This document shows positions 25,322 through 62,241 of a stretch of 64,000 bases of DNA, in pieces (position 1 is the first letter of the stretch; the number at the start of each line of letters is the position of its first letter). Both the position numbers and the translations under genes were made by a program. The stretch comes from Mycolicibacterium alvei (GTDB lineage: Bacteria; Actinomycetota; Actinomycetes; Mycobacteriales; Mycobacteriaceae). The notes under the pieces were generated by a model. That model made no database searches, had not been told where the DNA came from, and saw only the letters and a program-made list of their open reading frames with translations. The stretch spans positions 310,001 to 374,000 of the forward strand of contig NZ_AP022565.1 in the NCBI RefSeq assembly GCF_010727325.1. Direction: 5' to 3'.

Positions 25322-26486
25322 TGGCGCCGCTGATGCGGCCGCTGAACCGGCGGCCGGCCTGGACTTAGCCCGTGCAGCGAGGCCTCTGCCCGAATTGGCC
25401 CTGGCGTACTTCCCCGACGCCAGGTCCGTTAATTCGGACAGAGACCCCGGTGCAGGGGCCATTCCGAGCGGAGGTGTTTCAGCGGTGCCAGATTCCCCAG
25501 ATCAGTCCGACTCCCAGGACCACGGTCACATCCCGGTACTGCTCGACCGCTGTGTCGAGCTGTTGGCCCCCGCACTCACCCGCCACCATGAGGACGGCAC
25601 GGGCGCGGTTCTGGTGGATGCCACGCTCGGCGCAGGCGGCCACTCCGAACGCTTTCTGACCGACTTCCCGGGTCTGCACGTGATCGGTCTGGACCGGGAT
25701 CCCACCGCGCTCGGCATCGCCGGTGCCCGGCTGGCCCCGTTCGGCGATCGGATGCGGCCGGTGCGGACCTGCTACGACGGAATCGCCGGGGCGATTGCGG
25801 AGTCCGGCTTCACTCAGATCGACGGTGTGCTGTTCGACCTCGGGGTGTCCTCGATGCAACTCGACCAGACCGAACGCGGCTTCTCCTACTCCGCGGATGC
25901 GCCGCTGGACATGCGGATGGATCCGGACGCGCCACTGACGGCCGCGGACATCCTCAATACCTACGACGCCAAGTCGATCGCGCGGATCCTGCGCGACTTC
26001 GGCGAGGAGCGCTTCGCCGGACGGATAGCCGACAAGGCGGTCAAACGGCGTGTGCACAAACCGTTTTCCACCACCGGTGAACTGGTCGAGTTGCTCTACG
26101 AGGCGATCCCGGCGCCGGCCCGGCGGACCGGGGGGCACCCCGGTAAGCGCACCTTCCAAGCGCTTCGGGTCGCGGTCAACGGCGAGCTGGACTCGCTGCG
26201 CGCCGCACTGCCTGCCGCGCTCGCCGCGCTGACCGACGGCGGACGGATCGTGGTGATGTCCTACCAGTCGCTCGAGGACCGGATCGTCAAGCAGGCCTTC
26301 GCTGCCGCCACCGCATCGCGTACCCCGCCCGGCCTGCCCATCGAATTGCCCGGCCATGAACCCGAATTCGTCGCGTTGACCCGCGGTGCCGAGAAGGCCC
26401 GCCAAAGTGAGATCGATCGCAATCCGCGTAGCGCTCCGGTGCGGCTGCGGGCACTGGAAAAGGTGGGGGAAGGGGGTAACCGATGA
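25299..26486 (+). CDS. rsmH: RsmH (MraW), 16S rRNA m4C1402 methyltransferase
   Basis: SAM-dependent methyltransferase with [13 protein letters not shown], the SAM loop [33 protein letters not shown] and [12 protein letters not shown]. The ATG at 25299 overlaps mraZ by 23 bases and gives 395 residues, like the 396 I recall for M. tuberculosis. A shorter GTG start at 25484 (after GGAGG) would remove the N-terminal extension [20 protein letters not shown]. That extension resembles the M. tuberculosis one, so I keep the long form. Confidence 0.9.
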
Positions 26487-49045: not shown

Positions 49046-52000
49046 ATGGCGGACGGCGCGGCGCCGGGTTCGGTCCCGGACAAGACACACCGGACTGCGT
49101 GTTCGTACTGTGGCGTCGGCTGCGGTATCGAGGTCACCACCAGGGTCGATGACGGCCGCACGGTGATCGCCCGGGTGAGCGGCGACAAGCTGCATCCCAC
49201 GAATTTCGGACGGCTGTGCACCAAGGGGGCGATGCACGCCGAGTTGATGGCCGCCGACGACGATCGGCTCACCTCCGCTTTGCTGCGACCCACGCGTGCC
49301 GATGAACTGCTGCCGACGCCGGTGGATGACGCGGTAGCCGACGCGGGACGTCGGCTACGGGCCATCGTCGATCAGCACGGCCCCGACGCCGTTGCCCTCT
49401 ACGTGTCCGGCCAGATGACGATGGAGGCGCAGTACCTGGCCACCAAGCTTGCGAAGGGCTTCCTGCGTACCGTACACATCGAGTCGAATTCCCGGCTGTG
49501 CATGGCGAGTGCGGGCACCGGGTTCAAACAGTCGCTCGGCTCCGACGGGCCGCCGGGCTCCTACACCGACTTCGACCGGGCCGACCTGTTCTTCGTCACC
49601 GGTGCCAACATGGCCGACTGCCATCCGATCCTGTTCCTGCGCATGGCCGATCGGCTCAAGGCCGGCGCCAAGCTGATCGTGGTCGACCCGCGCAGGAACG
49701 CAACCGCCGAACGTGCCGACCTGTTCCTGCAGATCAATCCGGGAACCGATCTGGCCCTGCTCAACGGTCTGCTGCACCTGTTGGTGCAGAGCGGCGACAT
49801 CGACCACGAGTTCATCGCCGAGCACACCACGGGTTGGGAGGCGATGCCGGAGTTTCTGGCCGACTACCCGCCGGACCGGGTCGCCGAGATCACCGGGATC
49901 CCCGAGGCCGGCATCCGCACCGCCGCAGCGATGATCGCCGAGGCCGGGGAGTGGATGAGTTGCTGGACCATGGGACTCAACCAGAGCACGCACGGTACCT
50001 GGAACACCAACGCGATCTGCAATCTGCACCTGGCCACCGGCGCGATCTGCCGCCCGGGTAGCGGTCCGATGTCGTTGACCGGCCAGCCCAACGCGATGGG
50101 CGGCCGGGAAATGGGTTACATGGGAACGGGTCTGCCCGGGCAGCGGTCGGTGCTCGCAGCCGATGACCGGTCGTTCGTCGAAACCCGGTGGGGTCTCGCG
50201 CACGGCACCATCCGCTCCGAGGTCGGTCCCGGCACCATCGCAATGTTCGAGCAGATGGAGCAGGGCCTGATCAAGGCCTGCTGGATCATCTGCACGAATC
50301 CCGTTGCCAGCGTGGCGAACCGCAAGACGGTGATCAACGGTCTGGAGGCGGCCGAGTTGGTCATCGTCTCCGATGCCTACCGGTCCACGGCCACCAACCA
50401 CTACGCCGACGTCCTGCTGCCCGCCGCGTTGTGGGCGGAATCCGAAGGCGTCATGGTCAATTCGGAACGCAACCTGACCCTGCTGTCCCCGTCGGTCGCC
50501 CCGCTGGGGCAGGCCCGACCGGACTGGCAGCTGATCTGCCAGGTGGCTGCGCATCTGGGTTTTGCCGAACACTTCGACTACCAGTCCGCTGAGGAGATCT
50601 TTTCGGAGATCCGCGGGTTCGCCAACCCGAAGACCGGATACGACCTGCGCGGCGCCGACTACGAGCGGTTGCGCCAGACACCGTTGCAGTGGCCGGTTCC
50701 ACCGATCGACGGCCCTGGTGGGCAGGACGACCGGCACCCGATCCGCTACCTCAACGACGGCGTCAGCCAGGACCTGTTCGTCGATGCCGACGGCCACCGG
50801 CCTCGACTGGCCTTCGCGACGCCTTCGCGGCGCGCCGTCTTCCATGCCCGGCCGCACATGGATGCCGCGGAACTGCCCGATGACGACTATCCGATGGTGC
50901 TCAACACCGGACGGCTGCAACATCAATGGCACACCATGACCAAGACCGGCAAGGTGGACAAGCTCAACAAGCTCAATCCCGCGCCGTTCGTCGAAATCCA
51001 CCCCCTGGACGCGGTGGCGCTCGACATCGTGGAGGGGCAACCGGTCGAGTTGACGTCCCGGCGCGGCCGCGCCGTGCTCCCCGCGGTGCTGTCGGACCGG
51101 GTGCGGCCCGGCAACTGCTTCGCACCGTTTCACTGGAACGACGAACACGGCGAGTACCTGACGGTGAACGCCGTGACCAACGACGCCGTCGACCCGGAAT
51201 CGTTGCAGCCGGAATACAAGGTGTGCGCGGTCAACCTGCGACCGGTGCGAACGGTCGACAGCTCCCCGGCAGTGCATCCGCTGGCCGCGGAAATGGGCTT
51301 GAGTGCTGCGCACAGGCCGGCGCTGAGCCAGGACGAAAAGATCTATCTGGCCGGATTTTTCACCGGTCTATCGGCCGATCCCGCAGGAGTCCCGGTGTTG
51401 CCGGACGTGGCGCCGATCAGTAACAAGGTGCGGCTGTGGGTGGACGGGGTCCTGGCCGGACGCTACTCGCGGGCCGGCGACGGTGTGCCGGGCGAGCGGT
51501 CGGTACCGGGTGGGCCGCTGGTGCTGTGGGCCTCGCAGACCGGCACCGCCGAGGAGTTCGCAGCCGGGCTGGCGGGCCGTATCGACGGTGCGTCGTTGGT
51601 CAACATGGACGACCTCGCGCTGGCCGACCTGGCCGCCGCCCGCGACATCCTGGTGGTCACCAGTACATTCGGTGACGGTGGACCACCGGATAACGGGGCC
51701 GACTTCTGGAGCCGGCTACAGGCCCCGGATGCGCCTCAGTTGCACGGGCTTCGCTATGCGGTGCTCGGCATCGGGGACAAGTCCTACGACAACTTCTGCG
51801 GATACGCCAAATCCCTCGACCAGCGGCTGGCCGATCTGGGGGCCACCAAGTTGCTCGACCGCGCCGACTGCGAGGCCTACGACGACGAACCGTTGCGGCG
51901 CTGGGCCGATTCGGTCACCACGGCACTCGCCGGTGCGCCGCCCGTCCCGGCGGTCGTCGGCACCGGTACCCGCACCGTCATTCCGATCGAACCCGACGAA

Positions 52001-53107
52001 TTCACCAGGGCCAAGCCGATTCTGGCAGTGCTCGCGCGCAACGAGCTGCTGACGACGTCGAGGTCGGCCAAGGAGGTGCGTCAGTTCGGCTTCGACGTCT
52101 CCGAATACGACGTCAGCTACGGCGTCGGTGACTCGTTGGGTGTCTATGCCAGCAACGACCCGGCCGTGGTCGACTCCTGGCTGACGGCCACCGCCCTGAG
52201 CCCGGACTCGGTGATCGAGGTCGACGGTGTCGAGCAATCGCTGCGCGATGCGCTCATCTCGTCCTACGACATCTGCCGCGTGACACCGGACCTGCTGCGG
52301 TTCGTCGCGGACTCCTGCCCCGACCGCTCAGCAGCCAAGATCCTGCGCAATTCCGGTGAGCGGCGCAGCAACTGGCTGCGCAACCGCAACGGTCTCGACA
52401 TCGTGACGGAGTTCGCGGTGCACGCCGAGCCCGAACAGTGGCAAGAGGTTCTGGTCCGGCTGACGCCGCGCAACTACTCGATCTCCTCGAGCCCGCTGGT
52501 CAGTCCGCACGAGATCCAGCTGACGGTGTCGGTGGTGCGTTACCGCGGGTCGAGCGGCGCTGCCCGGGGCGGGGTGTGTTCGACCTTTCTCGCCGACCGG
52601 GCTGCGGCCGCGCCGGTGTTCTTGCAGCGCTCGCCGCACTTCCGGCCGCCCGAGGACGCGGCCACGCCGATGATCATGGTCGGCCCGGGTACCGGCGTGG
52701 CGCCTTTCCGTGGATTCCTGCAGGAGCGTCGCGTGTTGGGGCACGGTGGTCGCAACTGGTTGTTCTTCGGCGATCAGCACCGCAGTGAGAACTTCTACTA
52801 TCGGGATGACCTGGAGGACATGGTCAGTGACGGCTTCTTGAGCCGGCTGGATCTGGCGTTCTCCCGGGATCAGGCCGACCGCGTGTACGTACAGCACAAG
52901 ATGCTGGACCGCGGGGCCGAGGTGTGGCGCTGGTTGGACGACGGCGCGCACTTCTACGTCTGCGGTGACGCCGGCCGGATGGCCAAGGATGTCGATGCGG
53001 CGATGACGACCATCCTGCGGACCCATGGCGGCATGTCCGAGGACACCGCGCGCGACTACAAGCGGGAACTGGTGGCCCAGAAGCGGTACGTGCGCGACGT
53101 CTACTGA
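49046..53107 (+). CDS. nasN: Assimilatory nitrate reductase fused to NADPH flavoprotein (NasN-like)
   Basis: 1353-residue single-chain enzyme. The N-terminal [4Fe-4S] cluster has Cys19, Cys22, Cys26 and Cys58 (CSYCGVGCG, RLCTKG). The bis-MGD molybdopterin domain runs to about 740. A flavodoxin FMN domain starts near 822 (VLWASQTGTAEEFAAGL). The FAD/NADPH reductase follows (RNYSISSSP, GVCSTFL, GPGTGVAPFRGFLQER, YVCGDAGRMAKDV). So it can take electrons from NADPH directly to reduce nitrate to nitrite. The M. smegmatis equivalent, MSMEG_4206, was reported as NasN, as I recall. Convergent with the LuxR-type regulator, overlapping by 7 bases. Confidence 0.9.
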   Translation: MADGAAPGSVPDKTHRTACSYCGVGCGIEVTTRVDDGRTVIARVSGDKLHPTNFGRLCTKGAMHAELMAADDDRLTSALLRPTRADELLPTPVDDAVADAGRRLRAIVDQHGPDAVALYVSGQMTMEAQYLATKLAKGFLRTVHIESNSRLCMASAGTGFKQSLGSDGPPGSYTDFDRADLFFVTGANMADCHPILFLRMADRLKAGAKLIVVDPRRNATAERADLFLQINPGTDLALLNGLLHLLVQSGDIDHEFIAEHTTGWEAMPEFLADYPPDRVAEITGIPEAGIRTAAAMIAEAGEWMSCWTMGLNQSTHGTWNTNAICNLHLATGAICRPGSGPMSLTGQPNAMGGREMGYMGTGLPGQRSVLAADDRSFVETRWGLAHGTIRSEVGPGTIAMFEQMEQGLIKACWIICTNPVASVANRKTVINGLEAAELVIVSDAYRSTATNHYADVLLPAALWAESEGVMVNSERNLTLLSPSVAPLGQARPDWQLICQVAAHLGFAEHFDYQSAEEIFSEIRGFANPKTGYDLRGADYERLRQTPLQWPVPPIDGPGGQDDRHPIRYLNDGVSQDLFVDADGHRPRLAFATPSRRAVFHARPHMDAAELPDDDYPMVLNTGRLQHQWHTMTKTGKVDKLNKLNPAPFVEIHPLDAVALDIVEGQPVELTSRRGRAVLPAVLSDRVRPGNCFAPFHWNDEHGEYLTVNAVTNDAVDPESLQPEYKVCAVNLRPVRTVDSSPAVHPLAAEMGLSAAHRPALSQDEKIYLAGFFTGLSADPAGVPVLPDVAPISNKVRLWVDGVLAGRYSRAGDGVPGERSVPGGPLVLWASQTGTAEEFAAGLAGRIDGASLVNMDDLALADLAAARDILVVTSTFGDGGPPDNGADFWSRLQAPDAPQLHGLRYAVLGIGDKSYDNFCGYAKSLDQRLADLGATKLLDRADCEAYDDEPLRRWADSVTTALAGAPPVPAVVGTGTRTVIPIEPDEFTRAKPILAVLARNELLTTSRSAKEVRQFGFDVSEYDVSYGVGDSLGVYASNDPAVVDSWLTATALSPDSVIEVDGVEQSLRDALISSYDICRVTPDLLRFVADSCPDRSAAKILRNSGERRSNWLRNRNGLDIVTEFAVHAEPEQWQEVLVRLTPRNYSISSSPLVSPHEIQLTVSVVRYRGSSGAARGGVCSTFLADRAAAAPVFLQRSPHFRPPEDAATPMIMVGPGTGVAPFRGFLQERRVLGHGGRNWLFFGDQHRSENFYYRDDLEDMVSDGFLSRLDLAFSRDQADRVYVQHKMLDRGAEVWRWLDDGAHFYVCGDAGRMAKDVDAAMTTILRTHGGMSEDTARDYKRELVAQKRYVRDVY

Positions 53108-55797
53108 GCCAGGTCGTTCCAGACGATCTTGGCGAGCTCGTCGCGGTCGGCCACGTCGAGCTTGATGCAGGCCCGGTAGATGTGGCCCTCCACGGTGCGG
53201 ACCGAGACGGTCAGCCGTTCGGCGATATCGCGGTTGGACATTCCCTGCGCGACCAGACCGGCCACCTCGCGTTCGCGTCCGGTCACCGGCAGGGGCCGGG
53301 CGGCCGATCGGATCGCCGGGGTGGCGGCACCGCCGCACCTGGACGCCAATTGCAGTGCGTGCGCGGCCGATTCGGTGCTGTTGCGGCGATGTCCGGCCTT
53401 GTCGTGCAGAGGTACCGCCTGGGCGGCGGCGTCCGCTGCCGACAGCAGCAGGCCCGCCTCCTCGAACGCGCCGGCCACCTTGTCCAGTTCGTTCGCATCA
53501 GCGGCGGCGACCGCGGCGGCATGCCGTGCGTAGAGGGCGGGCAGCGGACCGTCAGTCCGGTCGACCAGCTCCTGTAGCCGACGTGTCACACTGCGGTCGC
53601 CGAAGCGTGCCGCGCTGTGCAGCGCCTCGGCCTCGATCGCGTACTGGCCGGAGGAATGTGCCGCGTCGGCGGCTGCCCGGGCCAGATCGACTGCCGAGCG
53701 GTGCCCGCCTTTGGCGGCGGCAAGCCAGGCCTTGGCGACCATCCGGAGGGGTTCGTGCAGCGCCATGAATTCGCCCGAGTGCTCCTTGGCGTCCTCCAAC
53801 ACCCGTTCGGCCTCGACGGGGCTTCCCACCGCGGCGTAGGCGCGGGCCAACAGCAGTCGGCCGGGGAGTTGCCAGGGCAGGGAGCTCTCGGCATTCAGCG
53901 CGGCGAGCGCCTGCTCGATCGCCAGGATGGCATCGTCGAACCGGCCGCTGTGGGTGGCGGCCACACCGGCCATGATCTTGGAGATGGCCCACCCGGCGAA
54001 CTGGCCGGCCGAGGAGAACTCGGTGTACTCGGTGGCGCGCTGCTGGGCCAGTTCGAGTTGACCGGTATAGGAGAGGGCCAGCACCTCGCCGTAGAAGACC
54101 ATGATCCGGACCATGCCGTCGGTCGTCTTGCGCTGAGCGCGGCATCGCGACGCGATCGGCAGGAAATCGTTGCCCCGGCCCACCAATGGCATCGACAGGC
54201 CGGCGGCGAATGCCGCGAAATCGACGGCCTGTCGCGGTGCCTCGGGGTTCGCCAGGACCCGTTCGGCGATCTCGAGCCCTTCGGGAATCTTGTTCTGGTG
54301 CACGGCCATACCCGCACCGAACGCGTCGACGATCAGTCGCAGGGTCGGATGGGTGACCCGTTCCTGTAACAGGTCAAGCACCTGTTCGGCCCTCGCCACG
54401 TCCCCCATGGACCAGAACAGGTTGGACAGCCGCGGAATACCCCACTGCACGAGCTCCAACTCATTGAGGTCTGCGGGCGAGAACTGTTCGAGGATGCCAT
54501 CGGCCTGTGCCGGATGGCCCTGCCACAGCAACGCGCGGGAGAGCAGCGCGGCCGCGCTGAGTCCACCGCCGTGGTCGAAGGCGGCGCGGGCCAGCTTCTC
54601 GCCGAGTGGAAGATTGGACAGGAACACCGCATCCTTGGCGGCGGTGATCAGTAGATCGATGTCGGTGCCCTGATCGCTCTGGATGGCCAACTCGGCCAAC
54701 TTGATTCGGCTGGCAGGTGAGTCGAGGTTGCGCTCGTGCAGGATCTTGGCGATGCGGCCCCGCAGCTTCCGGGCCGATGCGGTGCCGACCCGGCGGCGCA
54801 CCGCCTCGCCGAACAACGGGTGGCTGAACCGGACATTGACCTGGTTGTCGTCGGCGACGATCCGGATCAGGCCGCGCATCTCGGCCGTGTCCACCGCCTC
54901 CTCGCCGGCCAGTTCTGCCAGCGCATCGATATCCAGTGGTTCGCAAAGCGATAGCAGCTTCAGCGCATGCAGGACGTCCTCGCCGGCGTGCGCCAGTCGT
55001 TCGTCGAGAAGTTCGACGAGCCCCGAGGGAATGACGGTGGGGCCGCGGAACTGCCACACCCCGTTCACCTCGGTCAGCGAGCCGGCGTCGACCGCGCCTT
55101 CGACCATGTTGCGCAGGAACAATGGGTTGCCGCCCGAGGTCTCCCACATCACATCGGCGCTGAGTCCCTCCAGTGTTCCGCCCAGGACGATTTCAATGAG
55201 TGCGATGCTCTGCTGTTTGGTGAACGGGCTGAGTTCGAAGCGCTCGAGATAGCCGTCCTTCCACAGCGAGGTGACGGCGTCGGGAACCGGCTCACCACTG
55301 CGGACGGTGGCCACCACGTGGCCCGAGCGCTCCACGGCGATCTGGTGCAACAGCGTCGCCGACAACTGGTCCAGTAGATGTGCATCGTCGATCCCGACGA
55401 TGGTGTCGCCATCGGCCACAAGCGATTCGCGTGCCGATCCGATGAGTGCGATGGGGTCACGTGATCCCGATGAGGACACCCAGTGGGCGAATGCGCCGAG
55501 CGGAATGCTGCGCGACGACTCGGTGCACGCGGTCCAATGCACCTTCTGGCTCAACGATGCGGTGACGGTGCGCGCCAATGTGGTCTTGCCGACGCCTGCG
55601 GCCCCGACGAGCACGACTCCGCAGCTGTCCGTCCCGCTGAGGGCGGCCCTGATGGCCTCGTGCTCGGCGGGCCGGTCCAAGAGCTGCCACTGACCAGGCA
55701 TGAACCCTGAGTCTAGGGGCACCAGGCCCGGAACGCTGCCGAACAGGGGGTCGACGGGGCGTCGTGTGTCGGCCGAGGTGGCGAATGTTCTTCCCAT
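53101..55797 (-). CDS. Large ATP-binding LuxR-family (LAL/MalT-like) transcriptional regulator
   Basis: About 898 residues. The N-terminal AAA/STAND ATPase has Walker A VLVGAAGVGKTTLARTV (near residue 65) and Walker B-like DTIVGIDDAHLLDQL. A long TPR-like helical region forms the middle, and the C-terminal LuxR helix-turn-helix is LPVTGREREVAGLVAQGMSN plus RDIAERLTVSVRTVEGHIY. Such proteins switch on genes after binding an inducer. I prefer ATG 55797, preceded by GGGAA at 9 bases; in-frame ATGs at 55806 and 55857 exist, the last inside the upstream gene. It lies 25 bases after the catalase-like gene and is probably in its operon. Confidence 0.88.
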   Translation of the reverse strand: MGRTFATSADTRRPVDPLFGSVPGLVPLDSGFMPGQWQLLDRPAEHEAIRAALSGTDSCGVVLVGAAGVGKTTLARTVTASLSQKVHWTACTESSRSIPLGAFAHWVSSSGSRDPIALIGSARESLVADGDTIVGIDDAHLLDQLSATLLHQIAVERSGHVVATVRSGEPVPDAVTSLWKDGYLERFELSPFTKQQSIALIEIVLGGTLEGLSADVMWETSGGNPLFLRNMVEGAVDAGSLTEVNGVWQFRGPTVIPSGLVELLDERLAHAGEDVLHALKLLSLCEPLDIDALAELAGEEAVDTAEMRGLIRIVADDNQVNVRFSHPLFGEAVRRRVGTASARKLRGRIAKILHERNLDSPASRIKLAELAIQSDQGTDIDLLITAAKDAVFLSNLPLGEKLARAAFDHGGGLSAAALLSRALLWQGHPAQADGILEQFSPADLNELELVQWGIPRLSNLFWSMGDVARAEQVLDLLQERVTHPTLRLIVDAFGAGMAVHQNKIPEGLEIAERVLANPEAPRQAVDFAAFAAGLSMPLVGRGNDFLPIASRCRAQRKTTDGMVRIMVFYGEVLALSYTGQLELAQQRATEYTEFSSAGQFAGWAISKIMAGVAATHSGRFDDAILAIEQALAALNAESSLPWQLPGRLLLARAYAAVGSPVEAERVLEDAKEHSGEFMALHEPLRMVAKAWLAAAKGGHRSAVDLARAAADAAHSSGQYAIEAEALHSAARFGDRSVTRRLQELVDRTDGPLPALYARHAAAVAAADANELDKVAGAFEEAGLLLSAADAAAQAVPLHDKAGHRRNSTESAAHALQLASRCGGAATPAIRSAARPLPVTGREREVAGLVAQGMSNRDIAERLTVSVRTVEGHIYRACIKLDVADRDELAKIVWNDLAQ

Positions 55798-55822
55798 TGC
55801 AAGCATTTCCCGTTCGCCGGCG

Positions 55823-56950
55823 TCAGTCCGGAAGTTCGGTGATGTCAGAGGGCTCATGCCGCTCGATGCGGTTCATCCGGTGCCGGAAGTCGCTCGATGC
55901 TTCGTAAACCTTGAGCTTCAACCGGTTGATGGATCCCAGCGGCCGGTGGGCCTCCAGGCCACGCCATGAGTTGAACGACAGCACGTCGTCGCCGTACGCA
56001 CGGCGCAGTGCGCTGTACGGATTCTGCTTGGGGTACACCACCTTGGCCACCGGAAGGTACGGCGAGTCCCAAGGTTTCGTGGCGTCCTCGATCGGCATCT
56101 TCTCCGTGTCCAGACACAGCTGCACGCTGAATGTGTACTCCGCAGAGTGCCTTTCGAAGAATGCCATGATCAGATCGCGGTGCTCGTCCTGACCCGGATT
56201 GCGCGGAAGAGTCTGATTGGCGAGTGCTTTGACCTCGGGCGAGGTCGGTTCGTATTTGAAGCGGGCCACGTAGTCGCCGTACCGGATCGGGGCCGATGAG
56301 TAGAACGTCTCGCCCAGGATGGGACGGTTGGGGGCGACGAACACGGCCAGGTTCTGCGGTATCGGCAGGCCGACCTTCTTGAGCGCGCCGAGCAGCTCAC
56401 TACCGGCCCACAACGCGCGGTCGGACAACCGGGCCAGCAGGGTGGCGCTCAGCATCCCCAGCTTGCGGTATGCGTGGGCGTCGGCGAACAGGAATTCCTC
56501 GTGGGTGACGAGCACGAAGTCCTGTGTCACATTCGGCTCATCCTTCGGGTCCTTCATCGCCCGCTCGCCGTGCACACCGATGGCCTTGATACCGAGTCCG
56601 CGTACCCCCCGGTTCCGGTCGCTGCGCAATACCCCTGAGGTGGTTGAGATGCGGGCGATCACCGGATAGCTGCGTGCTTCGGCGAACATCCCCTGGGTCA
56701 GCACCTCGGGCAGATCCGGGTTGACGATGAGTTCGCCGCGCAGGATGGCGTGACTCTTGGCATGCGCGTCTCGCAGCCCGTGCTTGAACTTCTTGTACGC
56801 GCGTTCGTTGTTCTTGTGCAGGGACTCGATGATCTTCTCGATGTCCTCGGCCTCACCCGCCTTGGGCTGCTCGAGATCCTCGCGGTAGTGAACCGGGCTG
56901 AGGCTGCCGGCGATGCGATGTACGTCGGCGGGGGCCATAGCTTCGGTCAT
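55823..56950 (-). CDS. Catalase-like heme protein (y4iL/allene oxide synthase-related)
   Basis: 375 residues, shorter than a true catalase (about 480+). Catalase-fold landmarks are present: the distal His region DAHAKSHAILRGEL (His63), TTSGVLRSDRNRGVRGLGIK, NVTQDFVLVTHEEFLFADAH and the C-terminal LSFNSWRGLEAHRPLG. Relatives include coral allene oxide synthase and a small M. avium catalase-related peroxidase, which act on organic hydroperoxides rather than H2O2. A ribosome site AGAAAGG precedes ATG 56950. The start overlaps the dioxygenase stop (ATGA), so the two products are made together. Confidence 0.85.
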   Translation of the reverse strand: MTEAMAPADVHRIAGSLSPVHYREDLEQPKAGEAEDIEKIIESLHKNNERAYKKFKHGLRDAHAKSHAILRGELIVNPDLPEVLTQGMFAEARSYPVIARISTTSGVLRSDRNRGVRGLGIKAIGVHGERAMKDPKDEPNVTQDFVLVTHEEFLFADAHAYRKLGMLSATLLARLSDRALWAGSELLGALKKVGLPIPQNLAVFVAPNRPILGETFYSSAPIRYGDYVARFKYEPTSPEVKALANQTLPRNPGQDEHRDLIMAFFERHSAEYTFSVQLCLDTEKMPIEDATKPWDSPYLPVAKVVYPKQNPYSALRRAYGDDVLSFNSWRGLEAHRPLGSINRLKLKVYEASSDFRHRMNRIERHEPSDITELPD

Positions 56951-58833
56951 GCGGGTGCCTTTCTGGTCGGGGAGGCGACGTTCCAGGGGGCGAACGGGTT
57001 CGTCACGCCGGCCAGAGCCGGCGCCAGTTCGGGGAAGTGGCGCAACAACACCGAGCGCATGTCGTTGTCCCGGACCCACTTCAGACCGGCGACGGTGTAG
57101 ATCTCGTCGCGGAAGTCGGTGGTGAAGAAGCGGTCGCTTTCCAGCCGCCGGGTGGCCATCAGGACGAAGACGCGGAATGCGGTGTCGCTGAAGCCGAACC
57201 CGGGCGGTTTGGGCTCCGCGTACAGGCCGATCACCAGATCGACCAGGTCGACGTCGTCGTCGTAGGCCTCGCGCAGCTCGGCGGCAAGGGCCGTCTCACC
57301 GGTCAGCTCCTCGAAGGTCTTCACCGGCTTGAGCCGGAACAGCTTCCGGAACTCGTTGTAGCGCGGGACACCTCGTTCCCGGCACCGGACCAGGTCGATC
57401 GTGGCCAGGTCGATCAGGGTGCCGTCGACGCGACGCATTTGCTGCAGGTGCCTGGGGAAGTTGTGCAGCGACAACGCCCCGGGATGGGCCCGGCCGAAGG
57501 AGTACAGCAGGTCGGCCATCGGGTTTTCGCTCAGCCGGGCACGCACATTGAGCACCGAGAGTTCGGGGAGCTCGTGCTGTGCGGTGACGCGATCATCGGC
57601 CAGCGAGCGGAACGTGAACTCGTCGGGGATCAACGGGTGCATCCGGTACACCGCGACGAACTCCTCGGTCAGCGAATACGGCACGCCGTGATGTGTGGTC
57701 GGTGAGCCGGGGATGCCGAAGAGCAGGGGACTGCTGCCGACGCGTCCGCAGATTCGTCGCAACCGGGGGCCCAGCGTCTCGCCCAGCAGTCCGAACCAGT
57801 TGACGCGCATGGCCGTCACCGTGGTCGGGTGCGCGATTATGGCAGGCGTCCAGTCCACGGTGTGGATCTTGGCCATCAGTGCGGAATTGACCAGGCGCGC
57901 CTTGTCATAGAGCTGTTGGCCGGTGAGGTAGGGGTACGCCTGGGCCAGGTGGTCGCAGATGGCGTTGTGCTCGCGCATGAACAGCGAGTGCAGCAGGGCC
58001 AGGCCTACCCAGAAGTTGCCCGCGGTGCCGGTGAGGTCGGCCGTCGCTTCGACTTCGGGCGGCGGCAGGCCGGACTCGTCGATACGCAACTTGCCGTGCT
58101 CGGGTGCGCGCAGAGCACTGGCGAATGCCGGTGTGGTCCCGTAGATCTGGGAGGCATCCCACCAGTGCGACTCCTGGGTGACGAAGGCAGGCGGACCGGC
58201 CGGGCTGGGGTGGGGGTCGGGCGGGGTGCGCTCGACGCGCATCGGCCGCTGCGGCCACGGGTCGTCGTCGCGCAGCGGTACCACCCACGGTTGGGTGGTG
58301 ACCGAGCCATGGGCGAACCAGTCGTGCACCTCGAACTGAATCCATGCTGCGGCCAGCAGATTCAGGGTGGTCGCGGGCTGCAAACTCTCGCGGGTCAGCA
58401 GGGTGCGGCTGATCAGCCGCGGGTTGGGGGAGAGAAGACGCTGAGCGGATTCCGGGTAGGAGTGTTCGGGTGGGACGTTGCGGCCGAACCGGCAACCCAC
58501 TGCACCCATCCGGGGTTCTTTGAGATCGTTGTAGGACCCGTCGCGGGTGCGGGCGCCCAGATAGTTGCCTTCGCCGGCGGTGCCGACCGTCGATGTGGTG
58601 ACGGGTTCACCCGGTGGGACCGGGGCGGGTTCGGCGGCATACAGATTCGACGTACGCAGTTGACGACGCAGTCCGATCAGAACGATCAATCCGATCGGCT
58701 TGGGGAGCCGGGACCACCCCACCGTCTGGTCGATGTGCTGGGCGAATCTGGCTGCGAGGGTGGCCGTCAGCGATCGCGACCGGGACCAGACAGCGGCGAC
58801 GTATGCAGGTGCCTGTCTCGCCGTAGTCACCAT
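56947..58833 (-). CDS. Alpha-dioxygenase-like heme peroxidase (cyclooxygenase superfamily)
   Basis: 628 residues of the peroxidase-cyclooxygenase superfamily, close to plant alpha-dioxygenases in length and motifs. The distal His170 is in FEVHDWFAHG, followed by LLHSLFMREHNAICD. EFVAVYRMHPLIPDEF places Tyr396 three residues before the proximal His399, the same Tyr-x-x-His spacing as the catalytic Tyr and proximal His of rice alpha-DOX. Those enzymes convert fatty acids to 2-hydroperoxides. That activity is inferred here. The ATG follows GGAGGG. It heads a three-gene minus-strand operon with the catalase-like gene and the LuxR-type regulator. Confidence 0.87.
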   Translation of the reverse strand: MVTTARQAPAYVAAVWSRSRSLTATLAARFAQHIDQTVGWSRLPKPIGLIVLIGLRRQLRTSNLYAAEPAPVPPGEPVTTSTVGTAGEGNYLGARTRDGSYNDLKEPRMGAVGCRFGRNVPPEHSYPESAQRLLSPNPRLISRTLLTRESLQPATTLNLLAAAWIQFEVHDWFAHGSVTTQPWVVPLRDDDPWPQRPMRVERTPPDPHPSPAGPPAFVTQESHWWDASQIYGTTPAFASALRAPEHGKLRIDESGLPPPEVEATADLTGTAGNFWVGLALLHSLFMREHNAICDHLAQAYPYLTGQQLYDKARLVNSALMAKIHTVDWTPAIIAHPTTVTAMRVNWFGLLGETLGPRLRRICGRVGSSPLLFGIPGSPTTHHGVPYSLTEEFVAVYRMHPLIPDEFTFRSLADDRVTAQHELPELSVLNVRARLSENPMADLLYSFGRAHPGALSLHNFPRHLQQMRRVDGTLIDLATIDLVRCRERGVPRYNEFRKLFRLKPVKTFEELTGETALAAELREAYDDDVDLVDLVIGLYAEPKPPGFGFSDTAFRVFVLMATRRLESDRFFTTDFRDEIYTVAGLKWVRDNDMRSVLLRHFPELAPALAGVTNPFAPWNVASPTRKAPA

Positions 58834-58906: not shown

Positions 58907-58970
58907 GAGTAGTGGGCTACTCGATCCGCTCCGGGCGTTCCCTACGCGTTTCGAGTAGTCGAATACGCGT
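58907..58970. promoter_or_regulatory. Operator cluster between the dioxygenase and subtilase operons
   Basis: GAGTAG-TGGG-CTACTC (58907-58922) is a perfect inverted repeat. Further on, TTCGA-GTAG-TCGAA (58950-58963) is perfect and is flanked on both sides by ACGCGT (58944-58949 and 58965-58970), making a near-perfect 27-base dyad with one extra base. The heptamer CGAGTAG or a near copy occurs three times. Position in a divergent gap suggests shared control. Confidence 0.6.
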
Positions 58971-59030
58971 GTGTGCGTGGCCCGGTTGCGCGACGATCAA
59001 TCGACGCAGGAAAACCTGGGGTGGTTGCGT

Positions 59031-60875
59031 ATGCCGAGGAGTGCGGTGAGTTCAACGGGGGAAGTCTGGGCAGATCGGGTGCTCAGTGCGCTGGGGGATC
59101 TGGAGAAGTCCGGCAAGGCTGCCGACATGGCGTTACTGACAGAGACCGTCGCTGCCAGATTCGCATCGAGATTCGAGGAGCGGGACCGGCAATACGAGAA
59201 TGACAAACCGTACTGGCACAACCGTGTTCAGGATGCCGTCACCCGACTGCGTCGGGGGAAGCTGGTTGCGGCCAAGACGCCGAAGAGCGCACGCGTGCAA
59301 TTGACCGACGCCGGCCGTACAGCCGTCGCGGGTGCACGTGAACGAACTGGGGTCGCCACGGAGGCGGTGCGGACCGCGGCTATCGCCGACGTGCCGCCGG
59401 CGCAGGTCGGCACTCCCGAACCGCCCAAACGCGACCCGGTGCTGGCAGGTGTCGTGACACCACCCCTGCGCATGGCGATGGCGCGAGAAGGCGAGGCCAC
59501 GCCCATACCGATCATGATCGAGCTCAACCTGACGTTTCAGCCATCGGTGGCCGCTGCGATCGCGAGGGTCGAGCGGCTGTGGGAATCGGTCGGTGCGGCA
59601 GGCACTCCGATGGCGCTCGCCGATCAGTTCATGGCAGGTGATCTCACGTCGGCCCAGATCAAATCGCTGGTGTCCGCCGACGCCGTTCCGCAGACCTGGT
59701 CCGAACGGGCGGTCTACCGGATCTGGCCGGACTTCGAGGTGCACACACAGATCGACGCCTCCTCGACCACGATCAAGGCTGTCGCGGCGCAACGGTCGTT
59801 CGACAGCTACGGCGAGGGGATCGTCTGGGCTGTGGTCGATTCCGGTATCGACGAGACGCATGCGCACTTCTCGGAATACCAGAACCTGCGGCATCCTTCA
59901 GTGGTCGATCTGCACCGTGACTTCACCGGAGGTGGAGCTCCGCTGACTGACACCGACGGACACGGCACACACGTGGCCGGGATCATCGCCGGGGGTTTGG
60001 TGGGCCGCAAGCCCGCGGACGTCGTGGTGATCGAGAAGCGACTCAATGACCCTGAGCACGGCGGTGATCCGATCGCCGCGCCACGGACGGTCTCGAATCC
60101 TGACCGCCTGGCGGGCATGGCGCCGAAGGCCAAACTGGTGAGCCTCAAGGTGCTCGGGCCCGGCGATCAGACCTCCCGGGTGAGCCGGGTGATGCAGGCG
60201 TTGGCCTATGTCAGGAAGCTCAACGCCGGAAGTGAGCGGGTACCGCGGATACACGGTGTGAACCTCAGCCTCGGGTACGAATTCGACGCCGAGTGGTATG
60301 CCTGCGGGCAGAGCCCGATGTGTATCGAGGTCGACAAAACCGTGCGCTCGGGCGTGGTGGTGGTCGTGGCCGCGGGCAACTCCGGCTATGTGTCGCTGAA
60401 TACGGCATTCAGCAAGGATTCGGTGAAGTTCACCGCGGACATGACGATCAACGATCCCGGCAACACCGAAAGCGCGATCACCGTCGGGTCCACGCACCGC
60501 AGTTCACCGCACACCTTCGGCGTCTCGTATTTCTCCTCACGCGGCCCCACCGGGGACGGGCGATGCAAGCCCGACCTGGTCGCACCGGGTGAGCGCATCA
60601 CCTCGGCCGCGGCCGGGACCCGCCGGGAGGCCGTGACCAACCAGATCGACGTCAAGCCCGACGTGCCGGTCTACGTCGAGGAGAGCGGCACCAGCATGGC
60701 GGCGCCGCACGTGTCCGGCGCGATAGCGGCGTTCCTGTCGGTGCAGCGGGAGTTCGTCAGCGAACCGGAGGCGATCAAACGCATCTTCGTCGAATCCGCG
60801 ACCTCGCTGAACCGCGACCGGGCATTCCAGGGCAGCGGCATGGTCGATCTCATGCGGGCACTGCAATCCGTCTGA
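59031..60875 (+). CDS. Cytoplasmic subtilase (S8 protease) with N-terminal winged-helix-like domain
   Basis: 614 residues, no signal peptide. The S8 domain has Asp270 (VVDSGID), His311 (DGHGTHVAG), oxyanion Asn450 (AAGNSG) and Ser555 (ESGTSMAAPHVSG), so it should be active. The N-terminal 100 residues (WADRVLSALGDLEKSGKAAD; DAVTRLRRGKLVAAK; VQLTDAGR) resemble a winged helix of the Mrr-N type, which is unusual on a subtilase. The ATG at 59031 follows GGGGTGG; a GTG at 58971 would start within the operator. It is followed after 16 bases by the hydrolase gene. Confidence 0.85.
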   Translation: MPRSAVSSTGEVWADRVLSALGDLEKSGKAADMALLTETVAARFASRFEERDRQYENDKPYWHNRVQDAVTRLRRGKLVAAKTPKSARVQLTDAGRTAVAGARERTGVATEAVRTAAIADVPPAQVGTPEPPKRDPVLAGVVTPPLRMAMAREGEATPIPIMIELNLTFQPSVAAAIARVERLWESVGAAGTPMALADQFMAGDLTSAQIKSLVSADAVPQTWSERAVYRIWPDFEVHTQIDASSTTIKAVAAQRSFDSYGEGIVWAVVDSGIDETHAHFSEYQNLRHPSVVDLHRDFTGGGAPLTDTDGHGTHVAGIIAGGLVGRKPADVVVIEKRLNDPEHGGDPIAAPRTVSNPDRLAGMAPKAKLVSLKVLGPGDQTSRVSRVMQALAYVRKLNAGSERVPRIHGVNLSLGYEFDAEWYACGQSPMCIEVDKTVRSGVVVVVAAGNSGYVSLNTAFSKDSVKFTADMTINDPGNTESAITVGSTHRSSPHTFGVSYFSSRGPTGDGRCKPDLVAPGERITSAAAGTRREAVTNQIDVKPDVPVYVEESGTSMAAPHVSGAIAAFLSVQREFVSEPEAIKRIFVESATSLNRDRAFQGSGMVDLMRALQSV

Positions 60876-60891: not shown

Positions 60892-62241
60892 ATGACCAAC
60901 GATGTGGCAGAACGGATCTGGCGACTGGTGTTCGATGCCGAGGGCGATCCGGATCCAGCGGTGCTGGCCGATCTCACGGGTCGGATCGGTGCGGCGGGAC
61001 TGACCGATCTGGTCATCTTCTCCCACGGCTGGAACAACGACGAAGCGGCCGCGGCGTCGTTGTACGAGCGGTGGTTCGGGCTGTTGGCCCCACAACTCGA
61101 CCCGGCCCGCGCGGTCGGCTTCGTCGGGCTGCGGTGGCCGTCTCAACTCTGGCGTGACGAGCCGATCCCGGATTTCTCCGGACCGGTGGCACACGACGGT
61201 GCGGGTGCGGCCGCATTGGGCGACGAGGTGGTGGGGACGCCCGCTGGGCCGGTCACCATCGATGCGGCCCAGCTCGACGAGCTCAAGGAGCTGTTTCCCG
61301 ACGGCAAAGCACAATTGGACACCATCGCCGGTCTGCTGGCGGCCCCGCCGAGCAACGATCGCCTGCCCGAGTTGCTCGACGCGCTGCGCGCGTTCAGCGC
61401 CGCCACGCAGGCCGGGTTCAACGACGGTGAGGTGGCCACCCCGGACGCCGGGCCCGGGATGCTCGCCGAACACCAGGATCCGGAGGAGTTGTTTACCACC
61501 TTTGCCGACGAATTAGCATCTGCCGGTGTGCAATTCGATGACGGTGGGGGCGGAGGAGCGGCCGGCCTCGGTGACATCGCCGGAAGGTTGTGGCATGGCG
61601 CCAAGGAAGCCCTGCGCCAGCTGAGCTACTGGAAGATGAAGAACCGCGCCGGGGTGGTGGGCCGACGCGGGTTGGGCCCCGTCATCGATGCACTGCACGC
61701 CGATTTTTCCGGGTTGCGGATTCACCTGGTCGGGCACAGCTTCGGAGCGCGGGTGGTGTCCTACGCCCTTGCCGGGATGAGCGAGGTCCAACCCTCACCG
61801 GTCAAGGCGGTGACCTTGTTGCAGGGCGCGTACTCGCGCTTCACGTTCACCGAGCGGTTGCCGTTCCGGAAGGGTGCGGGTGAACTGGCGGGGCTGCTCA
61901 CCCGTATCGACGGCCCGCTGACGGTCTGTTTCTCCAGTCATGACCGGGCGCTGGGGACGTTCTATCCGTTGGCCTCGGCCGCGGCGGGCGAGGATGCGGC
62001 CGGGGCCGAGGATCCGCTGTTCCGCTGGCGGGCCATGGGTTCGCACGGGGCGTACCAGTCTCAAACCCAGAGCCTGGGTGCGGTGAATACGACCTACCCG
62101 TTCCAACCCGGTCGGATCCTGAATCTGAATGCGTCGGAAGTGGTGATCGAGGACAAGAGCCCGTCAGGGGCGCACAGCGACATCTTCCACAAGGAATTGA
62201 CCTGGGTTGTCGCCGCCGCCGGGAAGTTGAACCCGGCTTGA
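60892..62241 (+). CDS. Alpha/beta hydrolase of unknown substrate
   Basis: 449 residues. The nucleophile elbow is LVGHSFGARVVS; an oxyanion-type SHGWNND lies near residue 45; later SSHDRALGTFYPL and SGAHSDIFHKEL could supply the acid and His. A poorly conserved stretch of about 150 residues between the first strand and the elbow may be a lid. No signal peptide. The ribosome site GAAAGG and the 16-base gap show co-expression with the subtilase. Lipase, esterase or acyltransferase activity are all possible. Confidence 0.78.
   Translation: MTNDVAERIWRLVFDAEGDPDPAVLADLTGRIGAAGLTDLVIFSHGWNNDEAAAASLYERWFGLLAPQLDPARAVGFVGLRWPSQLWRDEPIPDFSGPVAHDGAGAAALGDEVVGTPAGPVTIDAAQLDELKELFPDGKAQLDTIAGLLAAPPSNDRLPELLDALRAFSAATQAGFNDGEVATPDAGPGMLAEHQDPEELFTTFADELASAGVQFDDGGGGGAAGLGDIAGRLWHGAKEALRQLSYWKMKNRAGVVGRRGLGPVIDALHADFSGLRIHLVGHSFGARVVSYALAGMSEVQPSPVKAVTLLQGAYSRFTFTERLPFRKGAGELAGLLTRIDGPLTVCFSSHDRALGTFYPLASAAAGEDAAGAEDPLFRWRAMGSHGAYQSQTQSLGAVNTTYPFQPGRILNLNASEVVIEDKSPSGAHSDIFHKELTWVVAAAGKLNPA

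Follow-up and report, generated by a model that had tools for sequence, protein, structure and literature searches.

A candidate oxylipin operon lies on the reverse strand of a 64,000-nucleotide stretch of the Mycolicibacterium alvei genome (contig NZ_AP022565.1, positions 310,001 to 374,000; hereafter the window), where it spans 53101-58833 (-) and comprises genes for an alpha-dioxygenase (alpha-DOX) homologue, a catalase-fold protein and a putatively ATP-binding regulator of the LAL type (Table 1). This layout, including the ATGA overlap that couples the two enzyme genes, had been noticed in a preliminary description and is confirmed in sequence; in addition, a 16-bp dyad precedes the alpha-DOX gene. 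In relatives, a Met or Val start at exactly -4 is available in 22 of the 30 unfused same-strand pairs of the two enzyme genes, and an Rfam scan gave no match above the gathering score at the operon locus. On balance, the evidence set out below somewhat favours the prediction that two haem enzymes of oxylipin metabolism are encoded here together with their own regulator.

Table 1. Features of the candidate operon (window coordinates)
Feature	Position	Strand	Remarks
Alpha-DOX homologue, 628 aa	56947..58833	(-)	Residue mapping to CalDOX, 114 homologues
Alpha-DOX residues			His170 distal haem, His399 proximal, Tyr396 catalytic, His324/Thr329/Arg563 carboxylate site
Catalase-fold protein, 375 aa	55823..56950	(-)	Distal His63, proximal Tyr349 with Lys345
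Thr149 of the catalase-fold protein			Distal-Asn position of catalases
ATGA start/stop overlap between the two enzyme genes	56947..56950	(-)	Read from sequence
LAL-type regulator (putatively ATP-binding, LuxR helix-turn-helix)	53101..55797	(-)	Start could be 55797, 55806 or 55857
16-bp dyad GAGTAG-N4-CTACTC	58907..58922	n/a	Candidate operator of the regulator, 89 bp before the alpha-DOX start

The 628-aa protein matches Pfam An_peroxidase (6.5e-106), its best solved relatives are the plant fatty-acid alpha-oxidases, and the protein that it matches best in a plasmid collection is plasmid-encoded in Calothrix sp. PCC 6303 (48.9% identity over 95%). This Calothrix protein is most probably the characterised alpha-DOX named CalDOX, because all eight residues checked (H131, H290, T295, F354, Y358, H361, F522 and R529) sit at the numbers published for CalDOX in the accessible part of PMC8720084. 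Equivalents of all eight are found in the window protein by alignment, which thus retains the catalytic, haem-ligand and carboxylate residues of CalDOX, LepDOX, CsDOX, OsDOX and AtDOX. Across 114 aligned homologues, Tyr396, His399, His324, Thr329, Arg563, Phe392 and Phe556 are invariant, and the distal haem position (H170, equivalent to H131 of CalDOX) is occupied by His in 91 and by Arg in 23. The protein displays the Tyr-x-x-His spacing of alpha-dioxygenases (catalytic Y396, proximal H399), and its H324, T329 and R563 correspond to the trio H311/T316/R559 of OsDOX, which binds the carboxylate of the fatty acid and brings its alpha-carbon into position, as stated in the accessible part of PMC8720084. 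These eight conserved active-site residues support the alpha-DOX-like assignment of the preliminary description. According to the available portion of PMC9305512, the first prokaryotic alpha-DOX enzymes have been described recently, in cyanobacteria.

An alternative assignment is that the oxygenase resembles 10S-dioxygenases and that the operon represents the Nostoc pathway, which yields a 10-hydroperoxide for a lyase. Brash et al. (2014, Journal of Biological Chemistry) reportedly described a Nostoc punctiforme 10S-dioxygenase together with a catalase-related hydroperoxide lyase. The pairing of a linoleate 10S-dioxygenase with a catalase-related 10S-hydroperoxide lyase in this organism is published (available parts of PMC13049297 and PMC9579011), a precedent that the preliminary description had missed, and it shares with the window the two-gene principle of a cyclooxygenase-superfamily dioxygenase plus a catalase-related partner. 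Of the 18 10S-like matches in 60 sampled Nostoc-family genomes, 13 have a catalase-like match within 0.6 kb, an unpicked count; the 11 loci fetched from this family were picked for gene closeness, so that adjacency within them does not count as a test. Unlike the window protein, none of the 11 10S-like dioxygenases carries the trio (H324 replaced by V or I, T329 by I and R563 by A), and they are 21.5-25.4% identical to it over partial length; the 10S label follows the published motif at its 127-residue spacing from the Tyr, under a loose pattern, in two of them (L230, L234; L and G numbers denote loci and genomes) and likeness in the rest. Between their catalase-like partners and that of the window, identity is 22-30%; the former have Thr before the distal His (9/11) and Asn at the distal position (11/11), where the window protein has Ala and Thr. 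Because the trio is kept in the window protein and absent from all 11 10S-like proteins, the former would most likely function as an alpha-DOX rather than a 10S-DOX, and identity with the Nostoc pathway is highly improbable. The same family also contains a 950-aa alpha-DOX (L236:2043-4892) and a 790-aa catalase-like protein (L238:574-2943) whose C-terminal parts, about 310 and about 415 aa long respectively, have no Pfam match.

The linkage of the two enzyme genes was followed in 198 sampled genomes of the genus, with this alpha-DOX clade defined as E below 1e-200 (59-100% identity). The catalase-like gene occurs in 38 genomes and this clade in 29, and all 29 of the latter also carry the catalase-like gene, so that the absence of co-inheritance against which the preliminary description had set its proposal did not occur; the hypergeometric value of 3e-27 ignores shared ancestry, as do the permutation, shuffle and Fisher values given below. 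In 28 of the 29 genomes the two matches lie at most 322 bp apart on one contig (six pairs divergent, the remainder same-strand or fused), and in the 29th (G020) both stand at contig ends. In sixteen further genus genomes every alpha-DOX belongs to another clade (42-50% identity) and a catalase-like match is absent; G379 and G442 carry an other-clade alpha-DOX and the catalase-like gene at separate places, and G019 and G408 yield remote peroxidase matches only. In other samples, the catalase-like gene and alpha-DOX were found in 5 and 10 of 41 genomes of a smaller set of relatives (the alpha-DOX count including remote matches), and in 3 and 21 of 296 genomes in a sample of the phylum (own genome included). 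A contig scan listed at least 80 alpha-DOX loci, 34 of them with a close catalase-like gene and a LAL gene adjoining in every case, nine with only a remote catalase-like gene nearby and 37 with none (some on short contigs). Over the 46 paired loci, counted after exclusion of duplicates (L176, L178, L181) and of broken contigs or copies (L020, L021, L101), distances among the alpha-DOX proteins correlate with those among their catalase-like partners (r = 0.85 versus at most 0.21 in 999 permutations), and pairwise distances across all three proteins agree (r 0.79-0.87 versus at most 0.23 in 999 permutations).

The two enzymes also occur as single polypeptides. Twelve of the 46 paired loci encode both in one open frame, alpha-DOX first and with the LAL gene next; forcing these 12 fusions into one clade was rejected in a quick tree (p-AU 0.007), which rules out one event for all of them and implies that fusion, splitting or both occurred more than once. 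The reverse order, again in one frame but with a more remote catalase-like domain, is seen in six loci, namely those of an actinomycete from another order-level group (L036), Nonomuraea (L058) and rhizobia (L061, L062, L063, L068). These reverse fusions form one separate branch with full support, in a tree that calls for caution, as their long branches meet that of L060. A plasmid search with their catalase-like domain gave 16 records at 51.8-62.9% identity among the best 30 of 120, all 16 of which also carry an alpha-DOX. Since the two enzymes have repeatedly been fused into one protein in other bacteria, it is very likely, judging from sequence, that they act on the same lipid. The functional connection suggested in the preliminary description is therefore supported by co-occurrence, fusions in both orders and matching divergence.

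The 375-aa partner has a computed catalase fold, in agreement with the fold first proposed for it, and H63 and Y349 are present in all 46 paired and all 10 other catalase-like proteins. Pfam gives it no match to PF00199 (Catalase) at the gathering score, and profile alignments place Thr149 at the position of the distal Asn of catalases in 46/46 paired proteins; it is consequently not a true catalase, and the earlier label of a truncated catalase was wrong. Like catalase-related oxylipin enzymes, it adjoins or is fused to a fatty-acid oxygenase. A 33-kDa catalase-related protein of M. avium ssp. paratuberculosis (PDB 3e4w/3e4y), which presumably has peroxidase activity, is about 20% identical to it, with near rows (within 1 Z) tied. 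The partner could instead be a scavenger that protects the alpha-DOX haem from inactivation by H2O2 or stray peroxides, the operon then being an ordinary oxidative-stress unit. Such a role would suit the retained fold with distal His63 and proximal Tyr349, the presence of the gene without this alpha-DOX in 9 of the 38 genus genomes that have it, and the DyP-type peroxidase genes adjoining two distant relatives, but it fits poorly with the uniform Thr149 and with the opposite-order fusions to a fatty-acid oxygenase, which argue for substrate transfer, as well as with the position of one relative beside oleate hydratase and 3-hydroxyacyl-CoA dehydrogenase genes and of another beside the latter dehydrogenase. 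We regard scavenging as unlikely. The two relatives in question, from Deinococcus (L064, 42% identical) and Shinella (L066, 40%), both lie near Dyp-type peroxidase and 3-hydroxyacyl-CoA dehydrogenase genes, L066 also near the oleate hydratase gene, and these neighbourhoods possibly represent another lipid-peroxide partnership.

The regulator, an open reading frame of 918 aa, contains a LuxR helix-turn-helix (GerE, residues 859-911; 47.1 bits, cut-off 23.5). Its N-terminal ATPase region gives sub-threshold matches to AAA_16 (26.5 bits, cut-off 32.6) and AAA_22 (25.8 bits, cut-off 27), and a GAAGVGKTT P-loop is visible in the translation. Identity with AbsR2 (NF050132) was rejected (237.9 bits against an NCBIfam cut-off of 850). 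The LAL gene adjoins the catalase-like gene in all 46 paired loci and in all nine genus loci that lack this alpha-DOX, which makes 55/55 close-clade loci; together with the conserved upstream dyad, this renders the link of the regulator stronger than the preliminary description had claimed. In L179 and L073 the LAL homologue is split over two open frames, possibly reflecting broken genes or sequencing errors, and L179 has more LAL-like frames beyond the far end of the fusion.

In an alignment of ten close relatives, GAGTAG-N4-CTACTC forms an island amid drifting upstream DNA. Allowing at most two mismatches and 350 bp upstream of alpha-DOX, the dyad is present in 31 of 42 same-strand and all four divergent paired loci, which span Mycobacteriaceae, Nocardiaceae and Gordoniaceae. 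At the same tolerance, none of the 63 other alpha-DOX loci has it, and mononucleotide shuffles produce it in about 1% of cases; the 63-locus control covered the 350 bp upstream and missed a one-mismatch site in L025 that a 136-aa gene separates from alpha-DOX. The 6.0-Mb genome holds two perfect dyads, the operon site and one located 36 bp before an LLM luciferase-like gene. Among 32 hand-chosen genomes, 43 perfect dyads were counted in the 15 with the module (reversed-pattern control 1), which include G379 with the catalase-like and LAL genes only, and 10 in the 17 without it (reversed-pattern control 4). Ten genes taken from beside other perfect dyads encode an FAD oxidoreductase, an LLM luciferase-like protein, Hcp, DUF6236, a GlcNAc transferase and five proteins without a family, a heterogeneous set in which no tidy dyad regulon is apparent past the alpha-DOX loci.

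The dyad also marks some alpha-DOX genes located elsewhere. In G379, where the catalase-like and LAL genes have no adjacent alpha-DOX, the sole perfect dyad lies between, on one side, a 136-aa gene plus a distant-clade alpha-DOX and, on the other, a divergent gene of the wax-ester-synthase/DGAT (WS/DGAT) type, a family named by Pfam on the corresponding L025 gene (79% identical to that of G379). With at most one mismatch, the dyad is found at a second alpha-DOX in seven of nine sampled genomes that have the catalase-like and LAL genes plus a further alpha-DOX, versus one two-mismatch site in 14 genomes without these two genes (Fisher 0.001; 14 of the 16 such genomes were taken, G439 and G448 being left out). 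The comparison is confounded, as the former set represents an alpha-DOX subtype with the 136-aa gene (8/9) and the divergent WS/DGAT gene (7/9), both found in 0/14 comparison genomes within the stretches fetched. An association of the dyad with a second alpha-DOX in trans is thus suggestive, not clean.

Several observations weigh against the oxylipin reading. This alpha-DOX clade is missing from nine of the 38 genus genomes that have the catalase-like gene, two of the nine (G379 and G442) having another alpha-DOX elsewhere, and the catalase-like protein can therefore act without it; 46 of the at least 80 alpha-DOX loci listed have no close catalase-like and LAL genes (L101 only by contig end), and outside Mycobacteriales the same listed loci include none with this close pair and nine with a remote catalase-like gene. 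The dyad is absent from 11 of the 46 paired loci, and a window-only scan at two mismatches remains within chance (three sites; 6 of 100 shuffles gave as many), which leaves conservation as the evidence for it. At least one perfect dyad occurs in 5 of the 17 genomes without the module, and none in 3 of the 15 with it; the site is accordingly not exclusive to the LAL regulator, and other regulators may use it. Finally, AlphaFold2 modelled a fusion only poorly (pLDDT 56.7, pTM 0.42) and gave no interface or haem placement.

These points bear on a further explanation, in which the catalase-like protein and LAL constitute a core sensor-regulator unit for peroxides or lipids, alpha-DOX is an optional client and any oxylipin connection is secondary. 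It would accommodate the unbroken adjacency of the two genes, which exceeds that of alpha-DOX (46/55 loci), and the dyad or a near form upstream of the solo catalase-like gene in 7 of 9 loci (one mismatch in one, AGGTAG-N4-NTACTC or near in six). Residue 142 of the catalase-like protein (codon at window 56527-56525) is also in its favour, being Asn in all nine proteins without an adjacent alpha-DOX, a count that omits L021 (Thr142), the broken-contig partner of the paired genome G020, and never Asn in the 46 paired proteins (44 Thr, 1 Ile, 1 Val). A tree places the nine Asn142 proteins on two branches, of which one lies inside the paired group; this hints at a different role where alpha-DOX is missing, and Asn142 may mark a change of substrate upon alpha-DOX loss. 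A core unit with an optional client is nevertheless difficult to reconcile with the catalase-like gene in every genome that has this alpha-DOX clade, with fusions into one polypeptide and with the dyad at further alpha-DOX genes in seven of nine genomes, and we consider it doubtful. Neighbours of the solo catalase-like and LAL genes (eight genes of L166 and one each of L168 and L171, by Pfam) encode a truncated-type globin, HNH proteins (2), DUF5130, an EspA/EspE-like protein, an M1 peptidase, an NAD-glutamate dehydrogenase, an M20 peptidase and two proteins without a family; none of these ten is an oxygenase that could replace alpha-DOX.

Nine neighbours of the solo alpha-DOX genes in L023, L024 and L025 encode a P450, GNAT, FGGY kinase, WS/DGAT, transpeptidase, PE-PPE, DUF222, PhzC-PhzF and one protein without a family, and no clear alpha-oxidation chain is apparent among them. 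In L060, alpha-DOX is accompanied by genes for a benzoylformate decarboxylase (a thiamine-diphosphate enzyme), an FAD-linked oxidase and a P450, and in L062 by thiamine-pyrophosphate proteins and a patatin phospholipase, neighbours that would fit a longer alpha-oxidation chain; no genes of the thiamine-diphosphate/FAD-oxidase type lie within the window operon. Ten alpha-DOX loci from Chloroflexi, Streptomyces, a cyanobacterium, an acidobacterium and Amycolatopsis (L113, L117, L124, L125, L129, L134, L135, L141, L146, L147) share a DyP-like protein, a weak Pfam match in L113; seven of them share a 424-aa and five a 148-aa protein, both without a Pfam family in L113, and in seven a remote catalase-like gene is also present, with Asn in place of the distal His in the six aligned and in L121.

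Within the window, the LAL gene overlaps by seven bases, 3' end to 3' end, with a gene at 49046-53107 (+) for a 1353-aa protein that combines a nitrate-reductase-like molybdopterin oxidoreductase with flavodoxin, FAD and NAD domains. Upstream of the operon follow a subtilase with an Mrr_N-like domain (58971-60875, +) and a protein without a Pfam family (60892-62241, +). A subtilase of this kind lies near the operon in 10 of the at least 80 contig loci listed, and beside the subtilase, in 11 of them, stands a protein some 447 aa long that weakly matches cutinase/hydrolase, apparently the same pair as at the window by order and size. A mraW cis-regulatory RNA is located at 25364-25467 (+; 75.5 bits).

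In the mechanism proposed here, alpha-DOX would bind the carboxylate of a free fatty acid and place O2 on the alpha-carbon, a step that, given the conserved residues, very probably yields a 2-hydroperoxy fatty acid. The catalase-fold protein would then convert this hydroperoxide into a stable product, and that it acts on this substrate is reasonably probable. The product may be a 2-hydroxy acid formed by reduction, which is rated slightly above decarboxylative cleavage on account of the resemblance to the M. avium catalase-related protein, or it may be an aldehyde one carbon shorter formed with loss of CO2. LAL would control the operon through the 16-bp dyad as candidate site, together with a second alpha-DOX locus in several relatives, which we consider likely. 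It is a more speculative and rather improbable extension that LAL recognises a compound consumed or formed in fatty-acid alpha-oxidation and, via the shared dyad, induces both the operon in cis and the alpha-DOX beside a wax-ester synthase in trans.

Among known systems, the Calothrix alpha-DOX locus differs from that of the window in having no catalase-like gene within the 11.8 kb fetched, and the word 'catalase' is absent from the main text of PMC8720084, which deals with cyanobacterial and plant alpha-dioxygenases. Catalase-lipoxygenase fusions are known (available parts of PMC11719350 and PMC5617202); unlike these coral allene oxide synthase- or hydroperoxide lyase-lipoxygenase and cyanobacterial proteins, the present fusions join a haem alpha-DOX in place of a lipoxygenase, and do so in both orders. 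No description of an alpha-DOX/catalase pair or fusion was found in the openly licensed literature, nor one of a mycobacterial pathway of this kind, in agreement with what the preliminary description had stated. As far as that literature reaches, the alpha-DOX type of pair, the both-order fusions and the attached regulator with its conserved dyad are new.

These findings have implications for bacterial lipid oxidation. If the signalling circuit were true, the alpha-DOX/catalase-fold pair or fusion would form a two-step route dedicated to making an alpha-oxidised lipid; no description of such a pathway was found for actinobacteria in the same literature. The both-order fusions name a likely second enzyme for the bacterial fate of the 2-hydroperoxide, and they suggest that cyclooxygenase-superfamily dioxygenases have teamed up with catalase-fold partners repeatedly, so that the Nostoc case is no oddity. 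With a regulator and a short conserved dyad at hand, the inducing lipid condition and the genes that share the site become directly testable.

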